Both the position numbers and the translations under genes were made by a program. A DNA stretch of 64,000 bases, from positions 638,501 through 702,500 of the forward strand of contig CAMXCT020006745.1 in the NCBI GenBank assembly GCA_947184155.2, in the 5' to 3' direction. Shown piece after piece: positions 29,307 to 61,263 of this stretch; positions within the stretch are counted from its first letter, which is position 1, and each line of letters starts with the position of its first letter. Under the pieces are notes generated by a model. It saw only the letters and a program-made list of their open reading frames with translations. It made no database searches and was not told where the DNA came from. Origin of the DNA: Cladocopium goreaui (Eukaryota > Sar > Dinophyceae > Suessiales > Symbiodiniaceae).

Positions 29307-29342
<36 letters not shown>

Positions 29343-34239: not shown

Positions 34240-34540
34240 CTAACTATAATATATACATATATAATATAAGATATAATATATATATATGTATATAATTATA
34301 TAATTATATATATAATTGTAATTATATATAATTATATAATTATATATACATGTATTATAATCTATAATTAGATCATTAGATATATATTTTTTTTAACCAT
34401 ACGTAACTATATAGAATTAAATCAGATTAAATATAATTATAAATAATTATATGTATATATTTTAGAATTATATATAGAGATATTTATATATAGAATTATA
34501 TATATATAGATAATCTCTATATATACATATATAGCGTTGA
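34240..34540. repeat. (TA)n-rich tract
   Basis: Variants of ATATATAATTATATA over 300 bp, with no coding content. Confidence 0.85.
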
Positions 34541-34597
34541 TTGGGTGCACCAGCAAGCGGGCTGCCCTGACGGCTGCCCTGCCGCCCGGCCTTTCAG

Positions 34598-34631
34598 GTT
34601 GACCCCCAGAACTTGGAGTCTGGGCAGCAAC
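34598..34631 (+). CDS. Candidate exon of the large split gene
   Basis: Acceptor CCTTTCAG|G and donor CAAC|GTTCAG. In the frame that ends in phase 0 (needed to join exon 35529) it reads LTPRTWSLGSN. Another frame (VDPQNLESGQQ) is open but ends in the wrong phase. Confidence 0.35.
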
Positions 34632-35528: not shown

Positions 35529-35558
35529 GTTCTGGCTCAACTTCGCCGCAAAACTCAG
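35529..35558 (+). CDS. Large gene exon a
   Basis: Ten codons, VLAQLRRKTQ, phase 0-0. Acceptor GACAG|G, donor CAG|GCTGAT (GC). Confidence 0.7.
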
Positions 35559-37738
35559 GCTGATCCTGCACCCCGGTCCCTCTTATTACTTGATATTACT
35601 TGCAGTTGGTCGGCCGATGGTGCTTAGATTTTAACCCAAAAAGGCATTCCAAGTCCTTTCAAGCCCGAAAACCGTTAAAGGCAAATCTCGGCCAAAACGC
35701 AGCCCCAAGCCGCAAGTCCCAAAAACTCCAAGCAAGTTCCAAGCGAGTCCTATGCCTTGTCCTTTCTGAGGAATCGACCCCACAGATGAAACGCTATGAG
35801 CCAGCTTGGTTGGCTGGTACCAGCGTGGGCGATATCATGTTCCAGGTGCTACCTGGAAGCCAGCAACGGACTGGGTGAACAGCCTGGGGTTTGTTCATAT
35901 CAAAAGATGTGGAAAAATCCATGAAAATCCATGGTGAATAGATGTGTGATTTGCTTATGATGAGTTTGGTCCCATGGTTTCAGCCCCAAACATGTCACAG
36001 TGATGGCCATGTTTGGCATCCCAAAGCGGCAAAGACGCCAGGCTGACTACTTTTTGAAAGAGTTGGCACTTGGGGAGTACACCATGCCCGTTCCTTGGAG
36101 AAAATGAGAAGAGATGTACCCGATTTGGTCATCCGTTTACGGGGCATTCATAGATGTTTTTTCCAATGAAGTTTGTATGTCTCCTGGTTGGTGGTTTGGA
36201 ATATTATTATTTTTTTCATATATTAGGAATAATCATCCCAACTGACTATAACAAACTAATATTTTTCAAGATGGTTAAAACCACCAACCAGTCTCTATAT
36301 GTAGCAGAGGTTTGTAGGTGGGGATGTGCATTTGCCCCAAGCCCCCAAGGACTGATAGGTTGGTATGTTGCGCATGTCGATAGCGAAGATGACAAGACAT
36401 TATCGCTACCCTCTGGTAATTTACAATAGCTATTGAACATGGCAATTTATAGTGGATTGACCCATTGAAAATGGTGATTTTCCATAGCTATGTTAGTTTA
36501 CCAGAGGGTACGTCTCATGGACATGTAAATGATATTGTATTCAGTGGGCCTCACACGCACACATGGTGTCCTTTGCTAATCCTGCTGCTACATTTAAATC
36601 CAGCCACAATTTCATTGAAGCCAGAATCATGTAATGTAATGTACGCAGTAGAAAATATATATGGCTCAAAGTTCAAATACTTGCTCTTCCTCTCTCTACA
36701 GAGACTGTAAGTTCTTTGCCGGCTGTCACGCTGTATTATTTATGAATCCTTTACCCTCACATCACACATCAAATCGGGGTCAAATATATAGCTATGTCAA
36801 AGATTTGTATATGTGCGTAGGTGATATACATATATACACGTAATATGGACATACGGTCTGGCTATTTAAGCTGGCAATGTAACATCATCCATGTAGCAGT
36901 TTGACGATGATCCCATGTTTACAGTGGTGATTTTCTAGCTAGCCATGTGAAATTCCAACAGGGTATGATTTATTTGTTGGTTCACCCACTCATGGTGTTC
37001 CAATTACAAAAGTGTTTTTGATCCCATGTGTATGTGTTTTTTGTTTTAATACCTTGAAGCTTCCATCTTCCTCTAAACAATGGTAAGTCACACATGTTTT
37101 TTAGGGATAAGTCCAGCCATTCTCTTGTGAATTTTTGGGTCATCCAGTCATCCAAGGTGGTTGGCATGATGACCCTTGGCTGCCATGGCTCATGGCAACG
37201 GCGGTAACGGCGGTAATGGATGCAACGGATGTCATGATGTCATCGGGAGGTCCCAAGTTCAATATGTACTGGTTGGTGGTTTGGAACATTTGGTTTATTT
37301 TTCCATTCAGTTGGCAATATTGGGAATAATACTCCCAACTGACGAACTCATATTTTTCAGATGGGTTGAAACATGTTGAAACCACCAACCAGTGTAGATT
37401 TAGATGGATTTAGCCATCAAACATGGTGAAAACTGCTATTTTTTTTTGCCAATTTCAGCTACCATCATGTGGATTTACCATTGGTTTATGGTACGTAAGT
37501 GGGGTTTACAATGATTCCTGGTGGATTTGTGGCAGGTGTGTCATGGGATGTGGTTTCCAGAGAAATTTGAAGCATGTGTTGACAGTGATGAAGTCTCAAG
37601 TACTGAAGACAAGTTGTTGTTTTTGGATGAAGATTTGGTGAGTTTGAGTCATCCCTTCCTGATTAATACACGTATATCATATGTATATCTATAGTTAGTA
37701 TAGGCCTTGAGGAGGTTAAGGACCTTCTCCGACAAGCT

Positions 37739-37773
<35 letters not shown>

Positions 37774-40700
37774 AAATATAATGTACGTGTTATTTGGTCA
37801 AAATCGCAGGCTATAAATAGTTTTTTTTCGTTCACCATCATTCCATATCATATTCCCATGTTCCAGATCTATATCAACATATATCAGCCAATATCCCCAA
37901 CATATATCAGCCCTATTCATCTAGCATATATCAACCATATCCCCAAGCACCCCAAGCACGTCTCGCACGTGAAATGGTCACATCTGAACGGTGAAACACC
38001 CTACAAAAACACGTCAATTCTATAGCGAACTGCATCAGAATCGTTGGTTTCACAAAAAAAAAAAAATCTTGGTGACCCCAGTTCTACAGCCCCTAAAAAA
38101 TCCATTCAATCATTATTCATGCCTTGCCATGGACATCTGATTTTCACGGACAGAATCCACCCAGTCACCCCGTCCTACGCGTTCCGCGCAACGCCGCCGG
38201 CCGCGAGGAGCGTCTTCGATTGGTCGGAACTCATGGACTCCACCAGCGCCTGGGCGGGCCGCGAGTGGTTCGTGGTGCGCAAGGCCGAAGTGCGCCTTGC
38301 GGAGGCCGAGTCGTTGACGGGGGGATGTCATATCATTTTATCAGATGCTGTATATATATATACATATATATATATAGATTGTATGTATAAGTTAATGTAT
38401 ATAATATGTACGTATATATATATTATATGTATATTGATAATAATGATGATAATAATAATAGTAATAATAAAAATAGTAATAATAATTAATAATGATAATA
38501 ATAATTATATATAATATATATATATAGATTGTATGTATAAGTTAATGTATATAATATGTACGTATATATATATTATGTATATTGATAATAATGATGATAA
38601 TAATAATAGTAATAATAATAATAGTAATAATAATTAATAATGATAATAATAATAAATATATTTATATATATATATTATAATATATATATATATATATAAT
38701 ATAGTATAGTTAATGGTATGACGATGTGTACGTAGATATGATATGATATGATATGATATGATATGATGTGTATATATATATATACATGTATTATATACAC
38801 ATGTGAAATATAGTTAAACGATGAATGATGTTCTGTCATGTTCCATTAAATCTAGATAAATGTGGAACACGTGGTGCAGTTGTGGTTTATGAGTGGACAT
38901 AGCCATGGCTATAATCGCCATAAATTGGGATATTAGACCATTTTAGTCGTGAACTCCATGGTAAAAATGGGTTCCATTTTAGGACACCACCCATTTTCGC
39001 AACGAAATAGCCATGCGATATGTCGAATCCCATGTTCCCATTATGGTTGGTGACTGTCCCACCGTGGTGAGTGAGTGTTTTACAGACCACACTCTAGCTC
39101 ATCCCCTTAACTGCAGGGGTGGGGTAATGGCCCACCTATCGAACTAATATTGCATCCGGGTATTGAACCCGTGTCTGACGCATGAGGGATGCGTCTTATC
39201 CACTAAACCATACCGGCCCTCCCACTGTGGTTGGTGACATATCAAAAAAATGGTTGATCTCACGCTTTCTTCACATTGAGATAAGCATTTGGGGGCCATG
39301 TTCAGGCACGTTGCTTTGTTTACACACCATTGTGATCTTATTTGCACGATACTTTGAATTTCATATACACCCTTGGTTTTTACAATTGACCATTATATAT
39401 ATATCATATTATTCCCATTGCCCCATTTCGTCGATTGCTACTACCAATTTTGTTTGTTAAACCCCAAGTGACAAGTTATTGAATTTCCTCCCTTGCCATT
39501 CTTTCGCCATTATGGTTGGTTGGTTTTACATCTCCATAAACATCACGCCCTTTCTCGCAGTGATGGCGCCATCACCAGGACAAGACTTTGATTCCCTTCG
39601 TGAAGATGGGAGTTGAGGCACGTGAACAGACCGTCCCTTGGTGGATTTTGGGGATTTGGTGGTTCCATCGGAAGTCAACGAGAAGATTCGCAGACAATGG
39701 GGGGATGCCAACAAACATAGCTCCATAGTGGACCCCCTAGTTTTATGTCTGAAAAAAAAACATCTATCTATAGATATCCTCCAAAAAAAACCAGTTATTG
39801 TAGTTATAAACGATCATATTAGTAGCTATCTTGGGTGCCCCACATTTTTTGAAGGTGGTGCCCCCAATCCCAAAGCCCAAGAGTAGGCTAACTTGCAGAG
39901 GGATTGATGGTAGATATGTCGAACTAGTTATATTATACAATATACCCTCTGGTTATTTAACATAGCCATGGAAAATCCCCAAAATAAATGGATGTTTCTA
40001 GCTGGGAATATAATCTATAAATGGGCCATCTATACCATGGCTATGTTAAATAACCAGAGGGTATACATTACATCGTATGTATGTAAATGGGTGAACATCA
40101 ACCAACCCAACATAACTTGCAAGGCGGGGCCCCCGTGGGGCCCCCGTTTACGATAGCTCGCTAAGTTGGTTGAACTAATTTGGTTAACTGCTGGTTATAT
40201 TGCAGCACATATTAAAGTATACTAGTTAGATGGGATTATAAATCAACAAGCATAGTGGGGGGGGCACATTGGGCTATCACCTTGAAGATGATGGTTTTAT
40301 AATGTATGTATATATATATATCTTATATATATATACCATAGGAAATGTCCGTTATCACAAAGTTGGCAATAATCCCTTCCTCCTAATACTAAACCCCCCC
40401 CCCTTAATACAAAACACGGCAGGTAGTTTTTAGTATTAGGGTGGTATTTATTATTAGGGAACCAAATCCAAGTCATGTTAATTAATTAATTAATTAATTA
40501 AATTTCCTTATACAACGCAATTAAAATATTGCCAAACATGGCAGTTCGAAGCTTACCCCTAATACTAAATTAAAACCCTTAATACTAAAAACTATTTTTT
40601 CCGATCTCAAAATCAATTAAATTTCCTTATATAACGCAATTAAAATATTGCCAAAAATGGCAGTTCGAAGCTTACCCCTAATACTAAATTAAAACCCTTA

Positions 40701-43700
40701 ATACTAAAAACTATTTTTTCCGATCTCAAAATCAATTAAATTTCTTTATATCACGCAATTAAAATATTGCCAAAAATGGCAGTTCGAAGCTTACCCCTAA
40801 TACTAAATTAAAACCCTTAATACTAAAAACTATTTTTTCCGATCTCAAAATCAATTAAATTTCTTTATATAACGCAATTAAAATATTGCCAAAAATGGCA
40901 GTTCGAAGCTTACCCCTAATACTAAATTAAAACCCTTAATACTAAAAACTATTTTTTCCGATCTCAAAATCAATTAAATTTCCTTATATAACGCAATTAA
41001 AATATTGCCAAAAATGGCAGTTCGAAGCTTACCCCTAATACTAAATTAAAACCCTTAATGCTAAAAACTATTTTTTCCGATTTCAAAATCAATTAAATTT
41101 CCTTATATAACGCAATTAAAATATTGCCAAAAATGGCAGTTCGAAGCTTACCCCTAATACTAAATTAAAACCCTTAATACTAAAAACTATTTTTTCCGAT
41201 CTCAAAATCAATTAAATTTCCTTATATAACGCAATTAAAATATTGCCAAAAATGGCAGTTCGAAGCTTACCCCTAATACTAAATTAAAACCCTTAATACT
41301 AAAAACTATTTTTTCCGATCTCAAAATCAATTAAATTTCTTTATATAACGCAATTAAAATATTGCCAAAAATGGCAGTTCGAAGCTTACCCCTAATACTA
41401 AATTAAAACCCTTAATACTAAAAACTATTTTTTCCGATCTCAAAATCAATTAAATTTCCTTATATAACGCAATTAAAATATTGCCAAAAATGGCAGTTAG
41501 AAGCTTACCCCTAATTGCTAGAGTAGCTAGGCAGCTTGGAGTGAGGGATTGGGACTAGGCCCCCCTAATACTAAACACCCCGGGGTGAACTAGTTTTTAG
41601 TATTAGGGGGGAGAACCCACAAATGGTAGGTTGATTTTTAAATTGTTTTTGAAAGGGGATCAATTAAAAGTCAAATTGGCCAAATGAAATTTTCGGAAAT
41701 TGGAGATGGATGCCTGTTTTTAGTATTAGGGGGACGTTTAGTATTAGGAGGAAGGGATTATGCCATAAACCAATGTAATTTTGTGGGTTAATTCCAACCA
41801 ACGTTTAAAGACACACCCAGATGATTCTCACAATCGTCGTGTTATCTTACCCTCTGGTAATTTAACATAGCTATTGAACATAGCCGTTTAGTTCCTTCAT
41901 TTACCCATCAAAAATAGTGATTTTCCATAGTTTGTTGTATGTTTACCAGAGGGTAAATCCCATTAAAACCTCATTGAGACCACACCTCGTTGAACATACA
42001 TCCTATCAGATGATTAAATTCCATACCTTGAGACCATCATTCTTATTGCTGGCCCAAGTTTTTTCTTGTTTTTCGGTTGGTGAAACTGCTATGTTTGTAC
42101 ATTTGATTTGATTTCTATATTCATAGCCATATTTCCATATTTTGGTTAAAATTCCATATTGTCTAAAATATTGTATTTGTACATTGCTACTGTTTATACA
42201 TTTGATTTCTATATCCATATGTTGTTTTGGTTAAATATAGGGTAATATCCATGTAAATAACCATATTATTTGTCATTGCCGGGCCACCCTTAAAAAAAAC
42301 CACCGAGGTCACGAGCAAGGGCTTGGAGGACAAGGCCATCACTAGCAAGAACCATCCACTCACCAGGCGCTGTGGCGCTGTGAACGGTTGGGATCAAAAT
42401 GAAAGACTTGCAAAACCACGAACATGGAAAACCACGAACATATAGTGGATTTAATAGGGTTTAATGGGATTTGATTGGGATATTACCCTCTGGTAAACTA
42501 ACATAACTATGGAAAATCACCATTTTTAATGGGTAAATCAACGAACTAATTGGCAATGTCCAATAGCTATGTTAGTTTACCAGAGGGTAACCAGGTTAAT
42601 TAGCCATCCAATTACTGGGTGGTGGTTTGGAACATGAATTTTATGACCTTCCATTCAGTTGGGAATAATCATCCCAACTGACTGATAGTTTTCAGAGGGG
42701 TTGAAACCACCAACCAGATTAGTTTTTAGTACTAGTATTAACCATTCAATAAACCTTTTTCATTCGATTTTTTGATGTATCAACAATCCAACAATAGTTT
42801 TTGTTGGTACTCAATTTTGACCCGCAACCAGATTACCCCTAGGGTAAGATTTTCTTAGGTCTATCTTAGTGTTAATCTAACATAGACAGATAATTAACAT
42901 AGGAGCATAGGTGTTTAGTATTTTTTTTCAATGGTCATTTCAGATTTAGCAATCTATTGGAGGTACCAGGTAACTACCATACAAGGGCCAAATTCAAGGG
43001 AATATCCCAAATAGCTCCACATATTTTTGCCTTACATAGTACAGCAGCTCCATTTTGCCGGCCTGAAATTCCCACTGCCTTCTGGTTGTGTTTTTGTCCC
43101 ATTTGATTGGTTCTATACCCGGTTTCGCGGCCCATTACCAAGTTGTTTCAAGCAGCAGAGTCAACAGGTTCAATCCGTCCGATTCCTCCCTGATGTTGCT
43201 GATAAAGCCATCCTGCTGAAGGAACTTTGAATATTGGTATTTGATGACCCCTAACTTAACGGAATTAATCCAGGTGGACCGTTGGTTATCCAATTAATTA
43301 ACTCTTGGTATTTGAGTGAACTCAGATTGAGCCATGGATGGACGAATCTCTCATATCTCTCTAATTTTGTGTACTTTATCCATAGAAATCGATATATATA
43401 TATATACAGATGTTCCCCAAAGCACCTCGAGAGGCATCCCTAGATTTTCATGATTTTTCATGATGTTAGCAATATATATATATAGGTCAAGTCTTGTATT
43501 TGTCGAGTTTGCAGTCCAAACGCTTTGAAGAACCAATGAGTCAATGAGTCACTGCTTGGGCCAGGACACACATAAGTAGGTCCAAAATACAATTTGGTAG
43601 ATTGTGAAATAGGGATGATATTACCTGCATGGTCCATGGTTGTATAGTTAGTATAGTTTTTATCTATGACCCATGCACTGGAAAACCATAAAAACCATGA

Positions 43701-46700
43701 ATTCAGCAATTGCTGTTTTTTTCCTGATTGGTGACACATTTTTTTCATGAGTAGGACGTGGCTGATGCAGCTATCAGTTTCAAGGTGTACCCCAAAACCT
43801 GGATGGTTTATTTCATGGAACATCCATATGTGAAATGGATGATAACTACAATGTGAGGCCCCCCCCAGTGATGTTAGTTGGTTTTTAAGCCCCAGTAACT
43901 ATAGTTATAAGTATCATAAACCATAGTTATTGGAGTTATAAACCAACTTAGCTATCTTGGGGGCCTCACATTGTAGAGGTAGCCCCATTAAAATGGAAAC
44001 CTCCATATATCTGGGTAAATTATGTTGCGACCGAACCCTGTTCTCCCGAACCCTGGGAATCATGGTTTAGATGTAGGGGAATCATCCCCAAATGGCCCAA
44101 CAATTCAGGATAGTGAAATATTATGGCTTTTACCCAGACATATGTGAAAGGTATGCCATAAATCCAAGAATTGGCATCAATCGTGAGTTTCTAATTATGG
44201 GTAATTCAACGAACTTTCTATGGCAATGTTCAATAGCTATGTTAGTTTACCAGAGGGTAACCAGGTTAATTAGCCATCCAATTACTGGGTGGTGGTGACC
44301 GGAACCATGGAATTTTATGACTTTCCATTCAGTTGGGAATGTCATCATCCCAACTGACTTTCATTTTTTTTTCAGAGGGGTAGGTATACCACCAACCAGT
44401 ATGAATGGGGTTATTAGTCCATAAGTGGGTGACTTGCTGACTTGCTGACTTTGTATTTCGGGCCATAACTGTAGGTCCAACTTCTGGGGCAAGATGCTTC
44501 CCACTTCCTATGGAGGGGAGATTAAGAGGTCATGTTGAGAATGGTTAAAATGTGGTTAACTATATTGTATTTTTTGGCTATAGTCATATGATGTCAACTA
44601 TATCGTAATGTTTTGGCTATAGTCATATGATGTCATATGGGTATCATATGGGTTGACAGACTAACTGAAACATTGGGGTGAACAAATTGTAGTTTATAGG
44701 CGTTCTATTCATATCAATATCTATAGATAGATAGATAGATAGATAGCTAGATAGATAGATAGATAGGTAAATAGATATATATATGTACGTAATCATTTTA
44801 GTATTTACCTTATCATATTGTTGGTTAGATGATTAGTTCTTAGCATATCCCATGATTTCTTCACTTTTGCATACAATGATATCATACATATACATCATCC
44901 ATTATATATATATATTCAATCAACCATATGATATATATATATATATCTATCTCCCTATGGATCCATGTACCTTCTTAGGAAGTGTTTGGCTTATGATTTG
45001 GGGGTATGATTTGGGGGTATGATTTGGGGGGTTAAGTGTCAGGAAATGTTTAGATCCATGTTCTCACTGGATTGGTTGAAGGGAAAATCTACAGGAAACC
45101 ATTTATTTTCCCATGAAATATTATAGGGTTTCCGGTTTCAATTTTCCCTTAAACAAATCCAGTGATGTTATATAACCCTACTCATATCAAAAAACATATA
45201 CCGTATATACCATACAATACCATGTTCACCTAGTCATACAATATATATGTATATATCTGGTTGGTGGTTTGGAACATGTTTATTTTTCCGTATATTGGGA
45301 ATAATCATCCCAACTGACTAATATTTTTCAAGATGGTTAAAACCACCATAAATATCAAGTACATAGATGATAATAAGATATATTCTACATGTTATTTAAC
45401 CTACTCAAACATCGGCCCACGTGGCAACCACCACTCCTCTCGTTGCGCCAGCGGTCCAGGTTTGCGGATGCCTTCAGCCGCCACTTCGACCTCATTGCCG
45501 AGCGAAAGAGCGTTGCTTGGCGGCAAAAACCATGGGAAACCATATGAAAACCATGGGAAACAATAGGAAAACCATAGGAAAACCATATGATAACCAGAAA
45601 CCATAGGAAAACCATGTGATAACCAGAAACCATATGAAAACCATGGGAAACCATAGGAAAACCATGGGAAACAATAGGAAAACCATAGGAAATCCTGGTG
45701 TTTCAATGGAAGTTTTAATGGGATACATGGATGATTCCACTATGATTAAGGTCAGTTGGTTGGTTGGTTGGTGGAAATCGATGGTGGAAATCGAAGGAGT
45801 TGCATTCCCAGTCAGGTGATCGGTTCCCATGAGAACCAGGGATCCCTCACAGTGGATGAGGCACTCAAGTTACTGGGTAAGAACCAGAAGCCATTGATAT
45901 TGGAATAGTAGCCCCACTTGACTCTATTTGCCATTTTTAGGCTTTCAAGCCATATCCGAATCAGGAAGAAATGGGAACATCCACCCATCCATCCAAGAAT
46001 GGACAGACTCCAATGGTGAGTATCTGGTTGGTGGTGACTGGAACCATGGAATGGATTATGACTTTCCAGAAACAGTTGGGAATGTCATCTTTATTAAGTG
46101 ACGAAGTCCATCATTTTTCAAAGGGGTTGGCTCAATCACCAAGCAGAAAATGGTATGATGTTGTAGTTCCATGCTGAATCCTCTACCTATTGTTGTTGTT
46201 TTTGTTGTATCATCTACTTATCATATCTTATCATATCCATCATGCACCATGATTGTCGTTTTTTTTGTAGATTGCATGTATTTTACATGTTACTGTTGTT
46301 CAATTAGATAACAACAACAGTATATCGATTATATTCCCCAATATTATATCCAATGAAGTTCCCATGATATCTAATTAGATAACAACAACATTGTATGAAT
46401 TACATTGTTTTTCAAAGTAGAAGCCCAACAAATAGAAATTTGAAATGTTCAATATAAATAATTGTTGGGTTCATTTCCCATTGTATATAATTATATCCCA
46501 TTATATTTTTAACTCCCAATATATTCTAATTAGATTAATTATATACATTCTAATTCTTCCAAGGAAGATTAAGTTTCGATGTAGACGCCTAATTAGATAT
46601 ACATTCTATTTCTTCCAAGATTATACCCTCTGGTGATTTAACATAGCTATTAAAAAAACACCATTTTTAATGGGTAAATCAACGAACTAAATGGGCCATG

Positions 46701-52700: not shown

Positions 52701-55700
52701 GACACCGGGACACCAGCTATTTTGATTTCAACTATTGTACAATGGTACTAGTGGCTTGACACATTGCCACATGAAGTGTTGTTCTGGTTGGTGGTTTGGA
52801 ACATTATATATTTTTCATATATTGGGAATAATAACCCATAGGATCCATGTATGCCATATATGGTAACATTTACCATTAATATACCCCCAATGTTAGCATA
52901 TATATCATACATGGATCCTATGGGTAATACCAACTGACCTTCATATTTTTCAGAGGGGTTGGCTCAACCACCAACCAGTGGTTTTTGTTCAACCCTTTGT
53001 TTTGGATTGGGTTCACACGCAACCCAACCATGGACGATACGGGTCCTGGGTCCGAAACGCAGATTTCGCAGCCCAAAAGGTGGCCTGGTTGATTGATGAT
53101 GAACACATGATTGATAATTTTGGTTGGGTAAAGATATATCAACATCAGCCTAACACTTCATATGAGGATTTGTCATTGTTTGATTGAACTCGTCATCACC
53201 ATCAAGCGACAATTGAACTCGTCTTTCCCCATGTTTGTTGTTCAATTCCATCATATTACCATTAACTCCCCCTATATGTTCCCCAGATTTCCCAGAAACC
53301 AAGTTGGATCATATTTTTGATCATAAACCATCCATTTTTTGATGCCGTCCAGCCCACTTGACGACTATAATAATAATAAAAATAAAACTAATAATAATAG
53401 TAGTAACAATAATCACAATATATATAATATATATATAGAGAGAGAGGCCAACAGACACTTATACAAAACCATATAGCACACAAACACATATTTCAAAACA
53501 AACCAACACCATATTCAAATATACATATACATATATATATATAGCATCTTAAAAACACAACACAATTCAAACCAATACAAGATAAACACAATAGAAATAA
53601 TACCATATCAGCACCAAATAAACACCAAACATCATACAAGGTGTGGCCCCCAAACGATAGCCGTGTTGGTTTATAACTTGGTTAACTCGGTTTTATAGCA
53701 TTAAGAACTCTGGTTTGGGGGTTTTTCTAAATCAACAAACATAACTTGGGGGCCCCACAGCAGCAGGAAACACCATTCTCCCCGGAATGATCGGAATTGG
53801 ATTGGGGGAATTACCATGAATCATTCCAATAGTTGGCTCAACATTTCAGGTTGCCCTCTGGTAAATTAACAGTTTGCGAACTGGAAAAATCACCATCTTG
53901 AATAGGTAAAAAATCTGAACTCAATGGGCCATGGCTTCAATGGCAAACTGTTAGTCATTACCAGAGACATATAATTTAATTTAAAATTAGAAATCCCAAT
54001 TAACAGTTGTTTATGGATAAATTACCAATGAACATTAGTGGAATAGGTAAATACACTAACTCAATGGGCCATGTTCAATGGCAAACTGTTAGTCATTACC
54101 AGAGACATATAATTTAATTTAAATTAAAATTAGAAATCCCAATTAGCAGTTGTTTATGGATAAATTACCAATTAACATTAGTGGAATAGGTAAATACACT
54201 AACTCAATGGGCCATTTTCAATGGCAAACTGTTAGTCATTACCAGAGGGTATCCCAATCAAATCCCATTAAATCACCATTAAAACCCCATGAAAAATCAC
54301 CATTATAAAAGTTTACCAGAGGGTTCCCAAACATTAAATCACCATTAAAATCCCATGAAAAATCACCATTATAAAAGTTTACCAGAGGGTTCCCAAACAT
54401 TAAATCACCATTAAAATCCCATGAAAAATCACCATTATAAAAGTATACCAGAGGGTTCCCAAACATTAAATCACCATTAAAATCCATTAAAAAAATCCCC
54501 GGAGACCTTGACAAAATCCTCGTCCGGCCAAGGCCTAGACCGTTTCCAGCTGGCACAACGTCCATCGCTGCCCACTGCTGGAATGGTGCCCAGTGGCATG
54601 CCTGGAGCCTTGCCAGGAGCACAACGCCTTGGACGGTATTCTCCAAGGTTTTTTTCTGATGAAAATGGTGTTTTTTACCAGATGTTCCAATGAAAACTTG
54701 GGAATTTACCAGTTTTTTGCTATGAACATTGTCATTTTTCTTGACTGTTTCCGATGAGCATGTGTGATTTTATCAGATTTTCCCATGCGGGATGTTGATA
54801 AATGTTCTAAGTGAAGATTGCCAAACAATAAGGATGTTACCATATTTTCCCGTTTTCAGATTTTCCCCATGTTTTTTTTTGCGCTTCCCAGATGTGTCCA
54901 TGCAGTAAGTAAATCATGAGATTTGCCTATGCGGATGAACATGGTCAAATTGGGAATTTCCCAGATCCTAGCTCTTCCCAAATCTGAAAGCGGAAAGTTT
55001 AACGTGTTTTCCCTGTGAAACGCCGTCCTGTCGTGGGTCTGGTAATTTAACGCTTTGCGAACTTGAAACTGGTCATTTAGTTCGTTGATTTATCCATTAA
55101 ACATGATGATTTTCCATAGCAAAATGTTAGTTTAACAGAGGGTCCTGGTTCACATCTTCAGACCAAACAAGAAGATCCCCTCAGGATCCAGTCGAGTAGA
55201 AATCGTGGGCTTGAGTAGTAATAGTGATTAGTGGGGCAATCAGTACTGAATATAAACTTCATCCATTTGTGGAATTTAAGGGTCTTCAATTGATACCCAA
55301 ACGTCCCAAACGTTGTTTGACGATTAAGCACTTAAGCACAGTGACAGGTACACTACCGTGTGTCGTTTCAGTGGTTGCAACGTGTGAAAATACCCCCAGA
55401 TGTTGATGTTCAAATCATGTGAGTTGAAATTCGGTCGTCACCAAAAGCTTGGAAAGTCAAACACACATTGAAACGTCATAACTGGCTTTGGCTGAAAATC
55501 TGAAATACTGAAATTTGCTGAAAATCTGAAATACCCCTGAATTTTCCGGGATTTTCCCCATTTTTTAATCATGGATCATCACTCTTCAAATGGCCAACTT
55601 AAATAGACCCATGAAATCCCGACCCAGTTCTCGGCCCATGAAATCCATGGATTCAGTTGCCTATATATCCCATGAGACATTAATAATCCATATATGGTTC

Positions 55701-58700
55701 CTATGGTTCCTATGGTTCCTATGGTTATGTTATGTATTGTTATGTTATGTTCCTTTTTTTTCCTATGGTTTCGTTGTTTTTTGAGTCAACTTGTTTGAAA
55801 CATGTTTTTGACACTTCGATCTCGAAAATCAATGAACATCAGCTATAGATGATCATAAGGTTTCCCTATGGCTTTTCCGCATGGCTTTTCCGCCACGTGG
55901 CTCGACAGGAGCCGCCTTGACGCAACCAGCTCGCTTTGACATCCAAGGCGGGCAGCAGGGGTTATGGGGTTTCCCCATTTGATCCATAACTGGCAGTCAT
56001 TTTAGCCTGATACCCGGATGGTACCCTAAAACACTAGAGTTGGGTTATGAATGATTATTCGATGTTATTCGGTTATTCCATGTTATTCCCCACAAATATG
56101 GTGCTAATAGGTTTTGACCCATCCCCACATGTTGTGGAATATATACCCACTTAAGGAACTTACCAAATGGATCCAAATGGGTAATTAGTGAAATTGCCAG
56201 ATTGGTAGTGGAATATATAATAGAATCATATATAGAACTATCCATGTTATCGGGTAATGGGATGTACAACCAGTACCATCTGGTAATTTAACATAGCTAT
56301 GGAAGCCACGGACCATTTATAGATGTTTTACCTTTTAAATTGGTGATTTTCAATAGCTATGTTAGTTTACCAGAGGGTATATCCCAATCAAATCCCATTA
56401 AACCCTATTTATTCCTATTATATAAGTTCAACCTTAAATCTGTAAATGAGGATTTAGCTAAACCATCTTTAAATAATTTAAATCCCATTACATCCCATTA
56501 AATCACCATTAAAATCCATTAACATCACCATGAAAATCCCATGAAAAATCACCATTAAAAGTTAACCAGGCCGGGTAGTGAATATGATGAGTTTACAAAG
56601 GTAACAGTACGCTATCCCCCTGGATCCCCCAGTCACACTTCCTAAAAAGGAAGCTACGGCTGGATCCAGTTTGTGAACCATAATATGAAGTACAATGTGA
56701 GGCCCCCCAGTTATAAGTTGGTTTATAAGCCCTACCATAATCCATAGTTATTGGAGTTATAAACCAACTTAGCTATCTTGGGGGCCTCACATTGTATGAT
56801 AATGGGATAAATCATGATAATTAAATGGGATAATCTTAGATGTAAAAAAAACAAAACACATCATTTCTCGCGACCATTTATAAATTAATTGAATGACTGG
56901 GATAACGATAATTAATAAACAACCATCAAAGCTATTTTTCATAGCCTTATTAGAGTTTTTCTGACCAATTGATACTTGGGATATTTCACATAGAGGACAT
57001 ACTACCCTCTGGTAAGTTAACACAAGTATGGATAATCACTATTTTTAATGGGTAAACCGGTAAACCATCTATAAATGGGCTATTTTCCACAGCTATGTTA
57101 GTTTACTAGAGGGTAACCAGAATTATTGAGGACTTATCTCCACATGACATGGTATGGCCATTTATTAGCTATAACCGGTTATTTCTATGGGATTATATTA
57201 ATACATTCTATAAATGGGGTTATGTTTGTACTTATCACTGGTATTTGGGACGGCTGAAAAAAAGAATCGATTCTCCAATTCAACGGGAGTGGTGTTTTTT
57301 TCCACCAGAATTATGGTAGTTGCAAGGTGGCCAGTTATGTTTGTTGGTTGTAAATTCATCCGATCGAACTGTATACTGTAGTCCGATATACCCTCTGGTA
57401 AACCCACAAAAAGCTATTGAAAATGGCCGTTTATAGTGGATTTACCCATTGATAGCATGGTGATTTTCAATAGCTATGTTAAATTACCAGAGGGTATCCA
57501 TAAATTCAACAGCGTAGTTATAGGCCAAGTTGGCTAATTGGAGGGCACCACCTTGCAACCAAACTGGATGGTTTTAACATGGTTTTAACAATTGTCAAAC
57601 ATTATCAACTTAACCTGAATTTGTGCCACCCAACGGCGGTATTGCCATGTTGTCCATGTGATGTTTTCTGTTGCCCTTTTGCATGGTTGGACCTTATCTC
57701 TGCAGTAATTTAGAGCAGTGGAAAAATACACAATATATTTATATATATACTTAATACTTACTGTATATTTTCATCATGTAGATAAATATAGGCACATAGA
57801 GATACACCTATCTATACAATTGTCATTTCTTTCACATCCAACCGTGCCTTGGTTCCTCCGTAAAAGTTCAACACTGGTCACCGACGATTCTCGTTGCCAG
57901 GTATGCAGTTGGGCCCCACTGGCCGGCCAATGTGATTTGGCAGATATGCACTGGTTCTGGCTGTGGCCCTGGTAGAATAATTCTTCCAAAATCTCCTAAG
58001 TGTTCAAAGCGGCCACCATTACCCTAGTTATATTTAATTATATAGGTATATTTATACTTACTGTATATTTTCCACAATACCCTAATGTTAAATTACCCTG
58101 GGGGGCTTTTAACAGAACCACTTGAAACATCGACCAAACAACAATAAGATCCCCTTGAAATCCAGTTGATTTACTAACAGCACAGAACTGTTATACGGAG
58201 TGACTCTCACAGTGACCATATCAGCAACGAACTCATAGACATCCAATGATTGAGCGTGGCCAAGGGTCGTTTTATGATCAACTAGGTTGATTCAACCAGC
58301 TTCATACTGATAGTTTTCAGCCAACCATATCGAATACTAAAGATATTAAGCAAAATACTGTGGATGGTAGAAATCCTGCACCAGTTGATAGGTGGTTTAT
58401 CCCATGATTTATAGGGTTTCAACCATCCTTTTGGTGGTGCAGGATTTCTTCCACCCTCAGTAAGTTCAAAACTAAACATCTTCGGCGTGACTTGACTGAC
58501 CACCTAAAAAGCAGGGGTTGTAAACGATTGAAGTCTCAAATTGTCCAACCAGAGTTCACGCTGTATTAATTGCTGGAAGTATACAATAGTTATGTAATGC
58601 TATGTATGTATGTATGTATATATATATATATACATACATACATACATGATATATTGTTCAAGTATATGATTATATAGCACTTATATGATCTTATATCGAC

Positions 58701-59288
58701 TTGTATATATTTATGTTTAGTTACACAATTGCTAGATGTTTACTATATATATATATATTCCACATCCATTTACATACATCGGTTTGTTTAGACATATTCT
58801 ATGTTTTTTTGCTGACAATTGTGATCCTGAAACATTCCCAGAATATAGTTCCCCACCCAGTTATGTTTGTTGTTTTATGCTCATCATTCCATTTTTGGCG
58901 ATATCTACCATAAATCCAAGATTCAGACAGTGTTATAAATCCATGTATATAAATGTTCTGGGCCATTTTTTTTTGCTTTCTCCATGTTTGTTGTTTTTGC
59001 TATTTTTTGCTATACTAGTTATGTCTACCAACAGAACTTTGGCCTAGTTCTGCCATCATGAAATCCTCGTGTTTGATGCTTCAATCCCCATATTTTTCAG
59101 CCTGGAAATCCAGCGAGGTTCATGCCGCAGCGGTTTCAGCTCACCCAGAAGGACCAGCCGCAAGGCTGATGCTTGCGCAAGAAAACCAGTTGAGAACGGT
59201 GGTAAACATAAGAAAACCGTAGGAAAAACCATAGGTTCATGGTGATTGAATGGATTTTAATGGTGATTTTCATGGGATTTGATTGTGC

Positions 59289-59320
<32 letters not shown>

Positions 59321-61077
59321 AGCCATGGCCCATAGAGATGGGTTTACCTATTAAAAATGCTGATTTTCTATAGCAATGTTAAATTACCAGAGGGTATAGA
59401 CTTTCTACCATCCTTTTGGTGCAGGATTTTGATATGGGGATGAGATGGATGAGATGGAGATAATGATATAAGTTTAGGATATACCTGAGATGAGATGGAG
59501 ATGATTATGTATGATTGATATTATATACATACTAGCATTTTTCGATGTCCAAAGACATATCTCTGAAAATGTCATGGGAAAACCCTTTGGAACAGATGGG
59601 GAACATCTCTGAAGTCCGCTCCGGGGCGATGGGGTGGATATTCCAGCCAGCTATAACAATGATTTATGACGTTTTTTTTTCTTTCTTTTGAGGTTGCTAC
59701 CAGTATCTACATAGACATGTAGAATGCTATACATATGTATATAATTGTATACAATATATAGTTTTATTTATTTTTATATTTGTATGTATTGGTGTATATT
59801 TACAATAGTCCTGAAGTACAGAAGCTAGAAATTTAAGATGTTCAAACATATTCCCATTTTAGTGAGGGTTGTTGGAAATTGTCATATTCTATCTACTCCA
59901 GGATGACTAACTAGGAAGCATCTCAATTCAACCTTCTTTTGAGCGTGTGAATTATATTGATTTAGCCAGTGAAATACCCCCTGGTACATTAACATAGACC
60001 CTGAACATGACCAATTTATAGTGGAAACTAGTCTTCCAACCCCTATCTGGCAGGGTATATATATGTTAATTTGTTGGAGGGTACCACCCATACATGGGAG
60101 ACTCAAAGAAAAATGTGGATATTACTAGCCCCGGGGAGATGGGATTGTATGAACCAACAAACATGAGAATGTCAACCAGGAAGAGTAAAGAAAAAGGCCA
60201 ACAATCATGTTTTTTCACCAACAATTTGGCCATGTTGCAACCAGCACTTGACTGTAAATGAGAAGTATCACCCAACAAATACAGTATATTTGGATACTAA
60301 GCAAGACATCAAAAGTCATCAATACTGTTGATTCAACCGACACTTGAACTAGCAAACATATTGTGACCAACGCAAGCCAAAGCCCATAGATGATAGGTTT
60401 GATCTTGGCAAGTTTTTCACGAGTTGGCTGGTGGTTTCCCAATTTTCAAACCCCAAGGGGGATAAACCATCAGGCATATAGAGGACATGGAAAACCATAG
60501 GCTTCAAACTCCTAACCTAAGACAAAAACAATACTCAAGATCAATCAATGCTAATAGTAAGTTCGAGTAGGACTAATTTCATCTAATAGTAAATATTATA
60601 TATATATATATCTAATTATCTAATCTAATCTAAATCTAATCTAAATCTAATCTAATCTAATCTAATCTATCTAATCCAGTCCAATCAAATCTACTCTACT
60701 CTAATCCAATCTGATCTAATCTATTTATCTATTCATCACTACAATAAATATATGAATGTCCCTAGTAAATTTAAGCAGGACTGATTTCATCTAATAGCAA
60801 ATCTTAAGATGTATATATATATATATACACATGTTTTCATATATATATATATCTATTATACATATTATAATATGTATATATATATATACATATTATATAT
60901 TATGTATATGTATATATATATTATACATATTATACGTATATATATATATATATATGTCTCCATCCGTCAGGTGTGGACCTCGCGTTGGACAAGTTTGACC
61001 TCAGCAGCTGTGAACGCTTCTCCAATATGCCAGCCTGCAGCTGCTTGGCGTCCAGGAAACGGCGCTTGGAACACGCG
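35529..61077 (+). CDS. Large split gene, conserved hypothetical family (overall model)
   Basis: Exons: 35529-35558, 35771-35845, 36042-36097, 38208-38304, 39579-39632, 42308-42366, 45460-45511, 46988-47017, 48947-49002, 50103-50145, 50562-50622, 52089-52160, 54533-54647, then 59101-59164 and 60971-61077. The first thirteen join in frame without a stop and total 800 nt over 19.1 kb. Motifs in order: LAGTSVGDIMFQADYFLKEL, GREWFVVRKAEV, IPFVKMGVEAREQ, FDLIAERKSVIFHLRELAKA, EIPQLWN, IYGGVQFGLDRFQLAQ, then a Pro/Gly/Gln-rich part, then GVDLALDKFDLSSCERF. I associate these motifs with a family of hypothetical proteins in dinoflagellates, from memory and unverified. No signal peptide, membrane segment or catalytic motif is visible. 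Nine donors are GC, five GT and one probably GA; every acceptor but one is AG|G. Start codon and true ends are not identified. Confidence 0.8.
35771..35845 (+). CDS. Large gene exon b
   Basis: Twenty-five codons including MKRYEPAWLAGTSVGDIMFQ. Acceptor with pyrimidine tract CTTTCTGAG|G, donor CAG|GTGCTA. The intron before it is 212 bp. Confidence 0.85.
36042..36097 (+). CDS. Large gene exon c
   Basis: Reads ADYFLKELALGEYTMPVP plus TG. The join to the next exon (TG+G, Trp) requires a GA donor (TG|GAGAAA). A GT at 36090 is the alternative but then a missing micro-exon must be assumed. Confidence 0.8.
36184..36291. mobile_element. Family B element
   Basis: Ends CTGGTTGGTGGTTTGGAATA and TTAAAACCACCAACCAG, with TCTC directly on both sides (4-bp duplication). 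Confidence 0.85.
36407..36510. mobile_element. Family A inverted-repeat element
   Basis: Ends TACCCTCTGGTAATTTACAA and TTAGTTTACCAGAGGGTA. Confidence 0.85.
37269..37392. mobile_element. Family B element
   Basis: Ends CTGGTTGGTGGTTTGGAACA and TTGAAACCACCAACCAG; TGTA on both sides. Contains a small internal duplication (GGGTTGAAACATGTTGAAACC). Confidence 0.85.
37738..37771. repeat. (ATC)n microsatellite
   Basis: About eleven ATC units. Confidence 0.95.
38208..38304 (+). CDS. Large gene exon d
   Basis: Reads (W)SVFDWSELMDSTSAWA, GREWFVVRKAEVRLAE. Very GC-rich. Acceptor GCGAG|G, donor GAG|GCCGAG (GC). A longer open frame surrounds it, but the family match starts at SVFDWSEL. Confidence 0.85.
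38345..38800. repeat. TA/ATA microsatellites with a roughly 145-bp tandem duplication
   Basis: The block from 'tatatatagattgtatgtat' to 'taataatgataataataat' occurs at about 38370-38507 and again at 38516-38653. It begins 40 bp after exon d. A TGATA run follows at 38736-38765. Confidence 0.9.
39150..39222 (-). tRNA. tRNA-like pseudogene or SINE head
   Basis: On the minus strand: GGGCCGG, an A-box-like TGGTTTAGTGGATAA, a stem-loop ACGCA-TCCCTCA-TGCGT and a B-box-like GGTTCAATACC in a T arm CGGG...CCCG. The 3' acceptor strand does not pair with the 5' end and loop position 33 is C instead of T. It is probably not a working tRNA, but both internal pol III promoter boxes are recognisable. Confidence 0.4.
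39579..39632 (+). CDS. Large gene exon e
   Basis: Eighteen codons, DKTLIPFVKMGVEAREQT, phase 0-0. Acceptor ACCAG|G, donor ACC|GTCCCT. Confidence 0.9.
39943..40063. mobile_element. Family A inverted-repeat element
   Basis: Ends TACCCTCTGGTTATTTAACA and TTAAATAACCAGAGGGTA. The arms match exactly through CATAGCCATGG. Confidence 0.85.
40100..40200. mobile_element. Possible family D remnant
   Basis: GGGGCCCCC, CGATAGCTCGCTAAGTTGG and GAACTAATT resemble inner parts of family D in shuffled, decayed form. Confidence 0.3.
40365..41764. mobile_element. 1.4-kb inverted-repeat element filled with satellite
   Basis: Ends ggcaataatcccttcctcct(aatactaaac) at 40365-40394 and the inverse at 41736-41764, with one extra base on the left. 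Just inside are further inverted blocks (GTTTTTAGTATTAGG). The centre is the 119-bp tandem array 40500-41513. No protein is encoded, so it would be non-autonomous. Confidence 0.75.
40500..41513. repeat. 119-bp tandem repeat, about 8.5 units
   Basis: Unit starts at 40500, 40619, 40738 and so on, each exactly 119 bp. Units are nearly identical (CCTTATATAACG/CTTTATATAACG variants). Each contains TGCCAAAAATGGCA, TTCGAAGCTT and two CCTAATACTAAA-like motifs, the motif also found in the element's ends. Confidence 0.95.
41848..41955. mobile_element. Family A inverted-repeat element
   Basis: Ends TACCCTCTGGTAATTTAACA and TATGTTTACCAGAGGGTA. Confidence 0.85.
42308..42366 (+). CDS. Large gene exon f
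   Basis: Reads VTSKGLEDKAITSKNHPLT plus AG, completed to Arg by the next exon. Acceptor CCGAG|G, donor CCAG|GCGCTG (GC). Confidence 0.85.
42484..42589. mobile_element. Family A inverted-repeat element
   Basis: Ends TACCCTCTGGTAAACTAACA and TTAGTTTACCAGAGGGTA. Followed after 25 bp by a B element in an arrangement repeated at 44199-44399. Confidence 0.85.
42615..42717. mobile_element. Family B element
   Basis: Ends CTGGGTGGTGGTTTGGAACA and TTGAAACCACCAACCAG; ATTA on both sides. Confidence 0.85.
43848..43974. mobile_element. Family D inverted-repeat element
   Basis: Ends ACAATGTGAGGCCCCCCC and GGGGGCCTCACATTGT. Confidence 0.85.
44199..44259. mobile_element. Family A right half, part of a duplicated A+B block
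   Basis: From GGGTAATTCAACGAACT to TTAGTTTACCAGAGGGTA. The 25-bp spacer and B element that follow match those after 42589. Confidence 0.75.
44285..44399. mobile_element. Family B element
   Basis: Ends CTGGGTGGTGGTGACCGGAA and ATACCACCAACCAG. The left flank equals that of the copy at 42615, while the right flank differs. Confidence 0.85.
44720..44770. repeat. (GATA)n microsatellite
   Basis: About ten GATA units with one GCTA interruption. Confidence 0.95.
45257..45350. mobile_element. Family B element, right end cut
   Basis: Starts CTGGTTGGTGGTTTGGAACA and keeps CATCCCAACTGACTAAT and TTTTTCA, but stops at AACCACC. Confidence 0.75.
45460..45511 (+). CDS. Large gene exon g
   Basis: Reads (R)FADAFSRHFDLIAERKS. 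Acceptor GTCCAG|G, donor AGC|GTTGCT. Joins directly to VIFHLRELAK in the next exon. Confidence 0.9.
45525..45700. repeat. ACCATGGGAAA / ACCATAGGAAA short repeat
   Basis: About 14 degenerate 10-12-bp units beginning 13 bp after exon g. The same motif follows exon h at 47020-47110. Confidence 0.85.
46024..46146. mobile_element. Family B element, diverged
   Basis: Starts CTGGTTGGTGGTGACTGGAA, ends CTCAATCACCAAGCAG; the inner stem is damaged. The 85 bp before it are shared with those before 48499. Confidence 0.75.
46624..46735. mobile_element. Family A inverted-repeat element
   Basis: Ends TACCCTCTGGTGATTTAACA and TTAGTTTACCAGAGGGTA. Confidence 0.85.
46830..46859. mobile_element. Family A element reduced to its two ends
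   Basis: TACCCTCTGGTAATTTAAAT followed at once by CAGAGGGTA: an internal deletion leaving only the arms, 30 bp in all. Confidence 0.7.
46988..47017 (+). CDS. Large gene exon h (30 nt)
   Basis: Ten codons, VIFHLRELAK, phase 0-0. Acceptor ACTAG|G, donor AAG|GCAAAG (GC). Confidence 0.9.
47020..47110. repeat. ACCATGGGAAA-type short repeat
   Basis: About eight units, like the tract after exon g, starting 3 bp after the donor of exon h. Confidence 0.85.
47224..47678. mobile_element. Possible family A element split by an insertion
   Basis: A left arm TGCCCTCTGGTAAACATACC (47225) has no nearby partner, and a right arm GTTTACCAGAGGGTA (about 47664-47678) has no left partner. The roughly 300 bp between contain a family D remnant (47515-47590). 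Confidence 0.45.
48499..48610. mobile_element. Family B element
   Basis: Ends CTGGTTGGTGGTTTGGAACA and TAAACCACCAACCAG; GTAT on both sides. Confidence 0.85.
48947..49002 (+). CDS. Large gene exon i
   Basis: Reads ASVMAKYLVDAKISVDPR plus TG, completed to Trp by the next exon. Acceptor CGCCAG|G, donor TG|GCCCGC (GC). Confidence 0.85.
49053..49169. mobile_element. Family A element, subfamily A'
   Basis: Ends TACCCTCTGGTAAATTAACA and TTAATTTACTGGAGGGTA, with the CATAGACCCTG/CAGGGTCTATG inner pair. A stray TTACCCTCTGGT lies just before it at 49021. Confidence 0.85.
49212..49343. mobile_element. Family D inverted-repeat element
   Basis: Ends ACAATGTGAGGCCCCCC and GGGGGGCCTCACATTGT. The central sequence is in the opposite orientation to the copy at 43848. 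Confidence 0.85.
49405..49514. mobile_element. Family A inverted-repeat element
   Basis: Ends TACCCTCTGGTAATTTAACA and TTAGTTTACCAGAGGGTA. Confidence 0.85.
50103..50145 (+). CDS. Large gene exon j
   Basis: Reads (W)YDLADELVSNTTPE to a GC donor GAG|GCGGCC. A strong GT donor (TTG|GTGAGC) at 50125 would end it seven codons earlier, also in phase, so alternative donor use is possible. Confidence 0.75.
50189..50316. mobile_element. Family A element, diverged right end
   Basis: Left GACCCTCTGGTAAACTAACA; right GTTTACCAGGCCGGGTAAC. The same GTTAACCAGGCCGGGTA end occurs at 56566-56577. Confidence 0.7.
50562..50622 (+). CDS. Large gene exon k
   Basis: Reads AHPEIPQLWNMRGNSRIQLQ plus G. Acceptor GGCCAG|G, donor AAG|GCACGG (GC). 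Confidence 0.9.
50812..50918. mobile_element. Family A inverted-repeat element
   Basis: Ends TACCCTCTGGTTATTTAACA and TTAAATAACCGGATGGTA. Confidence 0.8.
51193..51316. mobile_element. Family E inverted-repeat element
   Basis: Arms CTGTGGATGG...CCCGCACCAGTTGG and CCAACTGGTGCAGG...CCATCCAC. A second copy is at 58358 and a half copy at about 59400-59431. Confidence 0.75.
51580..51690. mobile_element. Family A element, strongly diverged
   Basis: Left TACCTTTTGGCAAACTCACA, right GTTTGTTGACCGGAGGGTT. Confidence 0.6.
51962..52058. mobile_element. Family F element, diverged
   Basis: Shares GAGGGAATGATCCATAAT and CCATTCCCTACGTTTAGCA with the copy at 10571. The ends are imperfect (ACTTGTGCTTAG / GCACGCACCAG). 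Confidence 0.65.
52089..52160 (+). CDS. Large gene exon l
   Basis: Reads (G)GKLRDVQTGLNNNLHAIY, GGVQF plus G. Acceptor GGGAG|G, GC donor TTCG|GCCGGG. The open frame continues about 15 codons past this donor, but the family match jumps to the next exon. Confidence 0.85.
52280..52345. repeat. (TA)n/(TACA)n microsatellite
   Basis: Low-complexity TA with ACATAC inserts. Confidence 0.9.
52784..52978. mobile_element. Family B element interrupted by a family C element
   Basis: B ends CTGGTTGGTGGTTTGGAACA and CTCAACCACCAACCAG are intact, but the central stem is split at GGGAATAAT / CCAACTGAC by the C element 52835-52924. Confidence 0.85.
52835..52924. mobile_element. Family C element nested in family B
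   Basis: Ends CCCATAGGATCCATGTATG and CATACATGGATCCTATGGG. A TAAT-like direct repeat borders it. Confidence 0.85.
53636..53760. mobile_element. Family D element, diverged
   Basis: Ends ACAAGGTGTGGCCCCC and GGGGGCCCCAC. Confidence 0.7.
53855..54480. repeat. Tandem arrays grown from a family A element
   Basis: Starts as an A element (TGCCCTCTGGTAAATTAACA). Its right half then recurs about every 140 bp (around 53960 and 54100), and finally a roughly 65-bp unit with AAAGTTTACCAGAGGGTTCC and AAATCACCATTAAAA repeats three to four times. Confidence 0.8.
54533..54647 (+). CDS. Large gene exon m
   Basis: Reads (G)LDRFQLAQRPSLPTAGM, then VPSGMPGALPGAQRLGRYSP plus AG. Acceptor GCCAAG|G, donor CAAG|GTTTTT. 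Pro/Gly-rich second half. Confidence 0.85.
55036..55142. mobile_element. Family A element, left terminus decayed
   Basis: Left GTCTGGTAATTTAACGC, right TTAGTTTAACAGAGGGT. Confidence 0.7.
55909..55955 (+). CDS. Candidate exon of the large gene
   Basis: GC island after acceptor GACAG|G. In the phase left by exon m it reads SRLDATSS and then meets a stop unless spliced at a GC donor. In another phase it reads GAALTQPARFDIQGGQQ, which resembles the next exon's NPARFMPQ. I cannot decide the frame. Confidence 0.3.
56272..56377. mobile_element. Family A inverted-repeat element
   Basis: Ends GTACCATCTGGTAATTTAAC and TTAGTTTACCAGAGGGTA. Confidence 0.8.
56692..56795. mobile_element. Family D inverted-repeat element
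   Basis: Short copy with ends ACAATGTGAGGCCCCCC and GGGGGCCTCACATTGT. Confidence 0.85.
57003..57115. mobile_element. Family A inverted-repeat element
   Basis: Ends TACCCTCTGGTAAGTTAACA and TTAGTTTACTAGAGGGTA. Confidence 0.85.
57389..57495. mobile_element. Family A inverted-repeat element
   Basis: Ends TACCCTCTGGTAAACCCACA and TTAAATTACCAGAGGGTA. Confidence 0.85.
57900..57934 (+). CDS. Candidate exon of the large gene
   Basis: Between GCCAG|G and CAAT|GTGATT. One frame reads MQLGPTGRPM, in keeping with the Pro/Gly/Gln-rich region around it. Its phase relative to the neighbours is not settled. Confidence 0.3.
58358..58457. mobile_element. Family E inverted-repeat element
   Basis: Arms CTGTGGATGGTAGAAATCCT and GGTGCAGGATTTCTTCCACC. 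Confidence 0.75.
59101..59164 (+). CDS. Large gene exon n
   Basis: Reads PGNPARFMPQRFQLTQKDQP, Q plus G. Acceptor TATTTTTCAG|C, GC donor AAG|GCTGAT. It joins in phase to the following exon; its link back to exon m is not established. Confidence 0.65.
59289..59396. mobile_element. Family A inverted-repeat element
   Basis: Ends TACCCTCTGGTAAACTAACA and TTAAATTACCAGAGGGTA. Confidence 0.85.
59975..60083. mobile_element. Family A element, subfamily A'
   Basis: Ends TACCCCCTGGTACATTAACA and TTAATTTGTTGGAGGGTA; inner CATAGACCCTG and GGCAGGGTATATATATG. Confidence 0.8.
60600..60725. repeat. TCTAA-type microsatellite
   Basis: Runs of ATCTAATCTAA variants. Confidence 0.9.
60805..60955. repeat. (TA)n tract just before exon o
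   Basis: TA/TATG low complexity reaching to within about 15 bp of the acceptor at 60970. Confidence 0.85.
60971..61077 (+). CDS. Large gene exon o
   Basis: Reads (G)VDLALDKFDLSSCERFSN, then MPACSCLASRKRRLEHA. Acceptor CGTCAG|G, donor GCG|GTGATG. The first two bases complete the glycine begun in exon n. Confidence 0.75.
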
Positions 61078-61159
61078 GTGATGTTTGTGATTTTTCATGG
61101 TCATTCGATGGAGGTGTGACAGCAATGACTGATGGGTTATAATTCACCGGTGGTGACAA

Positions 61160-61263
61160 TTCACCGGTGGTGACTGGAACCATGGAATTTGATGACTTTC
61201 CATAGGTTGGGACCCAACTGACGAACTCCATCATTTTTCAGAAGGATTGAAACCACCAATCAG
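61160..61263. mobile_element. Family B element, decayed
   Basis: CACCGGTGGTGACTGGAACC at the left and AAACCACCAATCAG at the right; CCCAACTGAC and TTTTTCAG kept. Confidence 0.7.

Follow-up and report, generated by a model that had tools for sequence, protein, structure and literature searches.

The window analysed here, a 64,000-nucleotide stretch of Cladocopium goreaui DNA (contig C6104, positions 638,501-702,500), contains the greater part of one copy of a multicopy gene that has no known domain. Its introns begin with GC, GT or GA and end in AG before a G, and it is very probable, as judged from the sequence, that they are removed by a normal spliceosome that can do without T at donor position +2 despite the canonical 5′ end of its U1 snRNA. 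Alignment shows a long chain of very short exons, the donor mix and AG|G acceptors along that chain, and the uninterrupted reading frame of a sister copy.

Identification of the Gene by Homology

The whole genome assembly (1.17 Gb in 6,202 contigs) was searched by tblastn with the hand-joined exon translations of the window gene as the query. Of the 24 matches obtained, 11 lay on the same contig as the window and the remaining 13 on C2450, C833 (five matches), C659, C2163, C3346, and C162. The paralogue on C2450, designated L010, is a single uninterrupted open frame of 726 amino acids. The original prediction had proposed that the exons encode one protein, and a homologous protein with the motifs in the same order was found as L010 by this search within the genome.

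The L010 frame, joined to a further frame located after a gap, served as the template for a splice-aware protein-to-genome aligner of our own, in which GT and GC donors score equally, a GA donor costs 1 point, a stop codon costs 25 points, the acceptor AG is obligatory, and 1 point is deducted if the first base of an exon is not G. The main alignment covered window positions 27,601-64,000 and 9.5 kb downstream of the window. On the plus strand, L010 aligned with a score of 1481 in 30 exons, with 342 of 504 residues identical. Against the same DNA, the reversed template scored 339 and three shuffled templates scored 311, 321, and 315; the reverse-complement DNA gave 311.

Homology was used instead of coding statistics or an ab initio exon chain because the two strands were nearly equal by those measures, which were not decisive: the GC-rich islands are scored as coding whichever strand is read, and the ab initio chain reached 236 on the plus strand and 197 on the minus strand. 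The same near-equality is what would favor an accidental exon chain, arising where splice rules that permit three donors and any AG are applied to GC-rich islands, but a score of 1481 against nulls of 311-339, the residue identity, and intron positions shared with the paralogues refute that reading, which retains a negligible probability. As far as homology can establish it, the window gene is real and is one large plus-strand gene.

Exon-Intron Structure of the Window Gene

The model places 23 exons totaling 1,185 nt on the plus strand of the window between 27,941 and 62,735. Exon lengths are 14-97 nt (median of 52 nt), and introns span 196-3,320 nt (median of 1,466 nt). Donors are GC in 13 cases, GT in 7, and GA in 3. 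The gene runs beyond the window, with the alignment reaching ∼72.0 kb in window coordinates and weak farther on. Exons for the first ∼230 template residues were searched for upstream in the window, where a score of 211 against a null of 170, at low identity, left them unsupported.

The first six exons (donor and residues identical to L010 in parentheses) are 27,941-28,000 (GT, 11/20), whose AG|G acceptor is probably at 27,946 and whose upstream boundary is uncertain; 29,113-29,176 (GC, 10/22); 29,733-29,761 (GC, 9/9); 31,840-31,908 (GC, 17/23), with GC also in C2163 at the same intron position; 33,498-33,542 (GT, 13/15); and an 18-nt exon at 34,598-34,615 (GA, 6/6), where the paralogue C833A also has GA at the same intron position.

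The next is 35,771-35,845 (GT, 20/25; GC in C2163 at the same position), the first supported exon of the interval 35,529-61,077. It is followed by 36,042-36,089 (GT, 15/16), whose intron position is common to all four C833 copies, and by a 14-nt exon at 37,157-37,170 (GA, 3/5), the least certain of the series, which was dropped when all dinucleotides were allowed. Downstream lie 38,208-38,304 (GC, 26/32), 39,579-39,632 (GT, 16/18), 42,308-42,366 (GC, 11/20), 45,460-45,511 (GT, 16/17), and a 30-nt exon at 46,988-47,017 (GC, 8/10), for which C659 and C2163 also have GC at the same position. These are succeeded by 48,947-49,002 (GC, 14/19), 50,103-50,145 (GC, 6/14), 50,562-50,622 (GC, 19/21), 52,089-52,160 (GC, 15/24), and 54,533-54,580 (10/16), whose donor is either GA at 54,581 or, by eye, GC at 54,596, which would add 5 residues and move the exon end to 54,595. 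The interval closes with 57,901-57,931 (GT, 8/10), 59,118-59,164 (GC, 12/16; at the same position GC in C659 and GT in C2163), and 60,971-61,039 (GC, 16/23). The last exon within the window is 62,692-62,735 (GC, 5/14), and the next, in L020, begins at window coordinate 64,003.

For the interval 35,529-61,077, the original prediction had listed thirteen exons of 30-115 nt (800 nt) with two more downstream. The chain of tiny exons was borne out, the interval containing 16 exons of 14-97 nt (35,771-61,039; 856 nt in total). The start at 35,529 is unsupported, no template residue being left between exons 34,598-34,615 and 35,771-35,845. The list missed the 14-nt GA exon at 37,157-37,170, and the window holds six further exons upstream (27,941-34,615) and one downstream (62,692-62,735). 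Its donor counts of nine GC and five GT were recovered exactly, and with them the excess of GC over GT, whereas two GA donors were found in place of one. Acceptors, described earlier as AG|G nearly throughout, are AG|G in 16 of 16 cases.

Upstream of the gene lie an uninterrupted 642-amino acid frame for a Nodulin-like/MFS transporter (16,091-18,019, plus strand) and large minisatellites with 24-, 72-, and 96-bp units (18,645-27,217), and a 119-bp satellite lies within an intron at 40,492-41,515. By eye, an inverted-repeat element that starts with CTGGTTGGTGGTTTGGAACAT and ends, variably, near TTCAGAGGGGTTGAAACCACCAACCAG is present at 32,011-32,142, 32,608-32,705, 33,170-33,275, 48,500-48,612, 61,150-61,262, and other places, with several copies in the introns of the gene. 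Many short MITE-like elements with ends like TACCCTCTGGTAA / TTACCAGAGGGTA or ATGTGAGGCCCCC / GGGGGCCTCACAT were also seen by eye between 27 and 64 kb. Scanning of the window with Rfam at the gathering threshold and for tRNA returned nothing.

Robustness of the Donor Assignments

The dependence of the donor mix on the aligner was assessed by varying its rules. The alignment score was 1137 with only GT permitted, 1300 with only GC, 1452 with both, 1482 with GA added, and 1495 with all sixteen dinucleotides. When all 16 were treated equally, GC (14 of 32) and GT (8 of 32) still led, and when the preference for G was removed from the aligner, a G followed the acceptor in 29 of 32 introns. When protein fit was the sole criterion, the chosen junction was the best or tied for best in 20 of 28 cases and 1-6 points short of the best in the other 8. 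A strict filter, which removes introns with a flanking exon of fewer than 5 aligned residues or below 50% identity, supported 19 of the 28 introns of the gene (10 GC, 6 GT, and 3 GA).

Donor Usage in the Lineage and in Other Genes of the Genome

An excess of GC over GT donors within one gene had been described as extreme even among dinoflagellates. This does not hold: of the seven dinoflagellates listed in Table 2 of PMC10666404, five have more GC than GT donors across the genome, an excess of GC being the norm in them. The GT/GC/GA percentages given there are 24.7/51.4/23.8 in Prorocentrum cordatum, 28.8/52.7/18.5 in Polarella glacialis, 23.6/58/18.4 in Symbiodinium natans, 30.3/52.3/17.4 in Durusdinium trenchii, and 36.6/43.6/19.8 in Cladocopium proliferum SCF055 (the last also in Table 1 of PMC9412976); Amphidinium gibbosum (74.9/25.0/0.1) and Amoebophrya ceratii (99.9/<0.1/0) depart from this pattern. 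Acceptors are AGG in 96.1% of SCF055 introns (PMC9412976, Table 1). GC and GA donors combined are put at 25-74% for Symbiodiniaceae in a review (PMC11453091), and GC donors are reported to be nearly as common as GT in Symbiodinium minutum (PMC4083563).

At Cladocopium rates, a gene of 15 introns would show more GC than GT donors with a probability of 0.57 and at least nine GC donors with a probability of 0.15. Chi-square comparison with the Cladocopium frequencies gave P values of 0.29 for the 28 aligned introns of the gene and 0.32 for the 15 of the original prediction. Similar mixtures were found elsewhere in this genome. In six paralogous copies, 66 introns passed the strict filter, with 27 GC, 25 GT, and 14 GA donors; C3346 was left out of these counts as near-identical to C2163. 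Prp8 is an essential splicing factor, and 47 of the 52 introns of its gene were supported, with 18 GT, 16 GC, and 13 GA donors and AG|G acceptors in 47 of 47. The Prp8 count refers to the fetched stretches, with Prp8 matches outside those and MCM matches left out. An RpoB-like gene on C2513 was dropped uncounted as a second baseline, having little sequence and a distant template.

Two further observations concern the assembly itself. An RNA polymerase beta-like match at C5395:12,773-13,898 contains several in-frame stops of all three kinds. Contig C1 (7.4 Mb) contains many long open kinase frames, has a G+C content of 0.58-0.62 in the four loci read, and looks like a bacterial companion genome.

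The donor mix of the window gene is thus normal for dinoflagellates. The 13 GC, 7 GT, and 3 GA donors of its 23 exons might by themselves have suggested a GC class special to this gene, regulatory or served by an unusual spliceosome; agreement with the Cladocopium frequencies, the sister genes, and Prp8 refutes this on the baseline, and almost no probability remains for it. The gene shares with the G[T/C/A]-AG|G introns of Symbiodiniaceae (PMC4083563, PMC9412976, PMC10666404) the mix of GT, GC, and GA donors and the AGG acceptors, and the many introns per gene (16.2), short exons, and intron lengths of the same order reported in PMC9412976. It differs in having a median exon of 52 nt, as compared with a published mean of 120 nt, and a median intron of 1,466 nt, as compared with a published mean of 839 nt.

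Canonical U1 snRNA

All eight U1 snRNA loci that were read, from 22 matches, begin with AAACTTACCTGG. A pattern search in which the base opposite donor position +2 was left free returned the canonical A in 17 of 17 matches, a set that overlaps the eight loci. U1 snRNA genes form arrays on C4692, C5084, and C4795 with a spacing of ∼2.7-4.8 kb. At +2, GC donors form a mismatch with canonical U1, and the consensus at +3 to +5 is not strong, so an altered U1 that pairs with GC would account for the laxity of the donors; it is highly improbable given the canonical sequence in all loci read and in all 17 matches to the pattern. It appears instead that position +2 is read loosely by an ordinary U1.

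Selection on the Window Gene

Over 481 codons compared with L010, dN was 0.28 and dS was 1.68 (NG86), a dN/dS ratio of ∼0.17, and zero stops were present; the stop penalty of the aligner and its preference for template-like exons somewhat flatter both the stop count and the ratio. The ratio suggests selection against protein change. The G+C content was 56.8% in the compared codons and 36.8% in the window's introns of the gene. Were the window copy a pseudogene or an unspliceable relic, its donors would be uninformative on splicing, and the large AT-rich introns and the failure to find the first ∼230 template residues in the window point in that direction. The lack of stops, the matching phases, and the low dN/dS, even allowing for the flattery noted above, argue against it, as does the same donor mix in Prp8, and we regard this reading as decidedly improbable. 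A copy whose introns are spliced in the normal way is the preferred reading.

Paralogous Copies

Several intron positions are common to the window gene and its paralogues. At the same intron position, donor +2 differs among sisters, being T in some and C in others at template positions 350, 444, 531, and 590. The window gene has GT against GC at position 350 and GC against GT at position 590; at position 444, the donor is GC in C659 but GT in C2163. At template position 563, the difference among sisters is between A and T, the window's own donor being ambiguous there.

At C833:98,001-138,000, the gene is present in tandem as four copies (L016-L019) whose intron numbers are graded. Together with the uninterrupted copy on C2450 (L015), they form a naturally occurring series in which the gain or loss of introns can be studied. 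A search of both strands of L015, allowing up to 6 mismatches, found no DinoSL relic near the uninterrupted copy, so a retrogene origin of that copy is not supported. Searches of the hand-joined exons and paralogue proteins against Pfam and NCBIfam gave no domain over the cut-off, and the best match of L010 in the PDB had an E value of 0.0078 over 109 residues.

Match between the Donor and the Following Exon

Among 132 pooled introns, 82 had the same base at donor +2 and at the second position of the following exon, against a permuted mean of 42.9; none of 5000 shuffles reached this number. GA donors preceded an exon beginning with GA in 27 of 30 cases. Beyond +2, the match was weak at +3 (48 of 132; permuted, 33.9) and absent at +4 (32; permuted, 33.0). 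The family introns (n = 85) gave 55 matches at +2 (permuted, 28) and 33 at the third base (permuted, 22), with no excess beyond, and counting one intron per position left 39 of 65 matching against 21.3 permuted. Prp8 behaved similarly at +2 (27 of 47; permuted, 15.2), with no excess at +3 (15; permuted, 12.2). For the window gene alone, the match was 9 of 19 (permuted, 5.9; p = 0.07), so weak that an insertion origin is not demonstrated for its particular introns, which may simply be old.

In a swap control, introns were exchanged among the junctions of four paralogues and re-aligned. The match was then 69 of 182, as compared with 42 of 61 observed, and for GA donors 23 of 51, as compared with 14 of 14. 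The bias of the aligner toward a match is small and is somewhat larger for GA.

By donor type, 66 of the 132 introns had an exonic AG|GN but lacked a CTTGG-like motif (GC in 36), 43 had a CTTGG-like motif at +5 to +9, and 23 had neither. Within the family, the CTTGG-like motif at +5 to +9 occurred in 28 of 85 introns (control offsets: mean of 1.8 and maximum of 5), and 12 of these 28 also had CCAAG-like ends. A clean 4-bp duplication was not seen, the visible direct repeat being 2-3 nt; the AG half of a putative 4-bp AG|GN site lay beyond the test, every intron having been made to end in AG.

The match could reflect a functional requirement of splicing rather than a target-site duplication. 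Its concentration at +2 (82 of 132), with little farther on, would fit such coupling, but at shared positions 350, 444, and 590 donors differ next to an unchanged exon base, as expected of drift after duplication. Functional coupling is accordingly rather unlikely, and target-site duplication is the preferred explanation of the match.

DISCUSSION

The structure of the window gene is itself of a known kind: introns of 0.2-3.3 kb cut it into very short exons under the G[T/C/A]...AG|G rule that is ordinary for the lineage, and these introns would be removed by a normal spliceosome for which T at donor +2 is probably dispensable in this lineage. What the analysis adds is a testable idea about the origin of the frequent GC and GA donors. 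Many introns of this genome may have arisen from introner-like insertions that duplicated their target site, in which case the donor dinucleotide would be a copy of exon sequence at the site of insertion, drifting later.

In Symbiodinium microadriaticum, the introners described by Gozashti (2022; PMC9860276) have terminal inverted repeats and carry the 3′ splice site, and their 4-bp target-site duplications are co-opted as the 5′ splice site. The introns examined here resemble them in the match of donor +2 to the next exon and in the CTTGG-like motif at +5 to +9 in 43 of 132; they differ in that only a 2-3-nt direct repeat is visible and in that the window introns are not assigned to a repeat family. 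The introner elements of Amoebophrya (Farhat, 2021; PMC7789003) are comparable in their direct and inverted repeats at non-canonical introns and in spliceosome proteins that are largely present. Their boundaries are described there as being without a fixed dinucleotide and U1 as undetected, whereas the introns examined here retain G...AG|G, and the genome encodes a canonical U1.

We put at about even the chance that a large share of all introns in this genome, beyond recognized introners, was born by target-site-duplicating insertions, GC and GA donors being fossils of the insertion site that persist because only the G is read by a spliceosome whose U1 is canonical. Were this so, approximately four introns in ten would still bear a trace of insertion, an estimate drawn from two gene families; published pattern searches have marked introner elements in ∼3-5% of Symbiodiniaceae genes (PMC11114475). 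In the portions of the literature consulted, a match between donor and next exon is stated nowhere beyond the introner families of PMC9860276, though Roy et al. (2023, Curr Biol) may contain it. At one end of this gene family stands a copy with 726 uninterrupted codons and at the other an intron every ∼50 coding nt, and donors differ at the same position; such a range allows direct tests of how introns are born and of how tolerant the 5′ splice site is.
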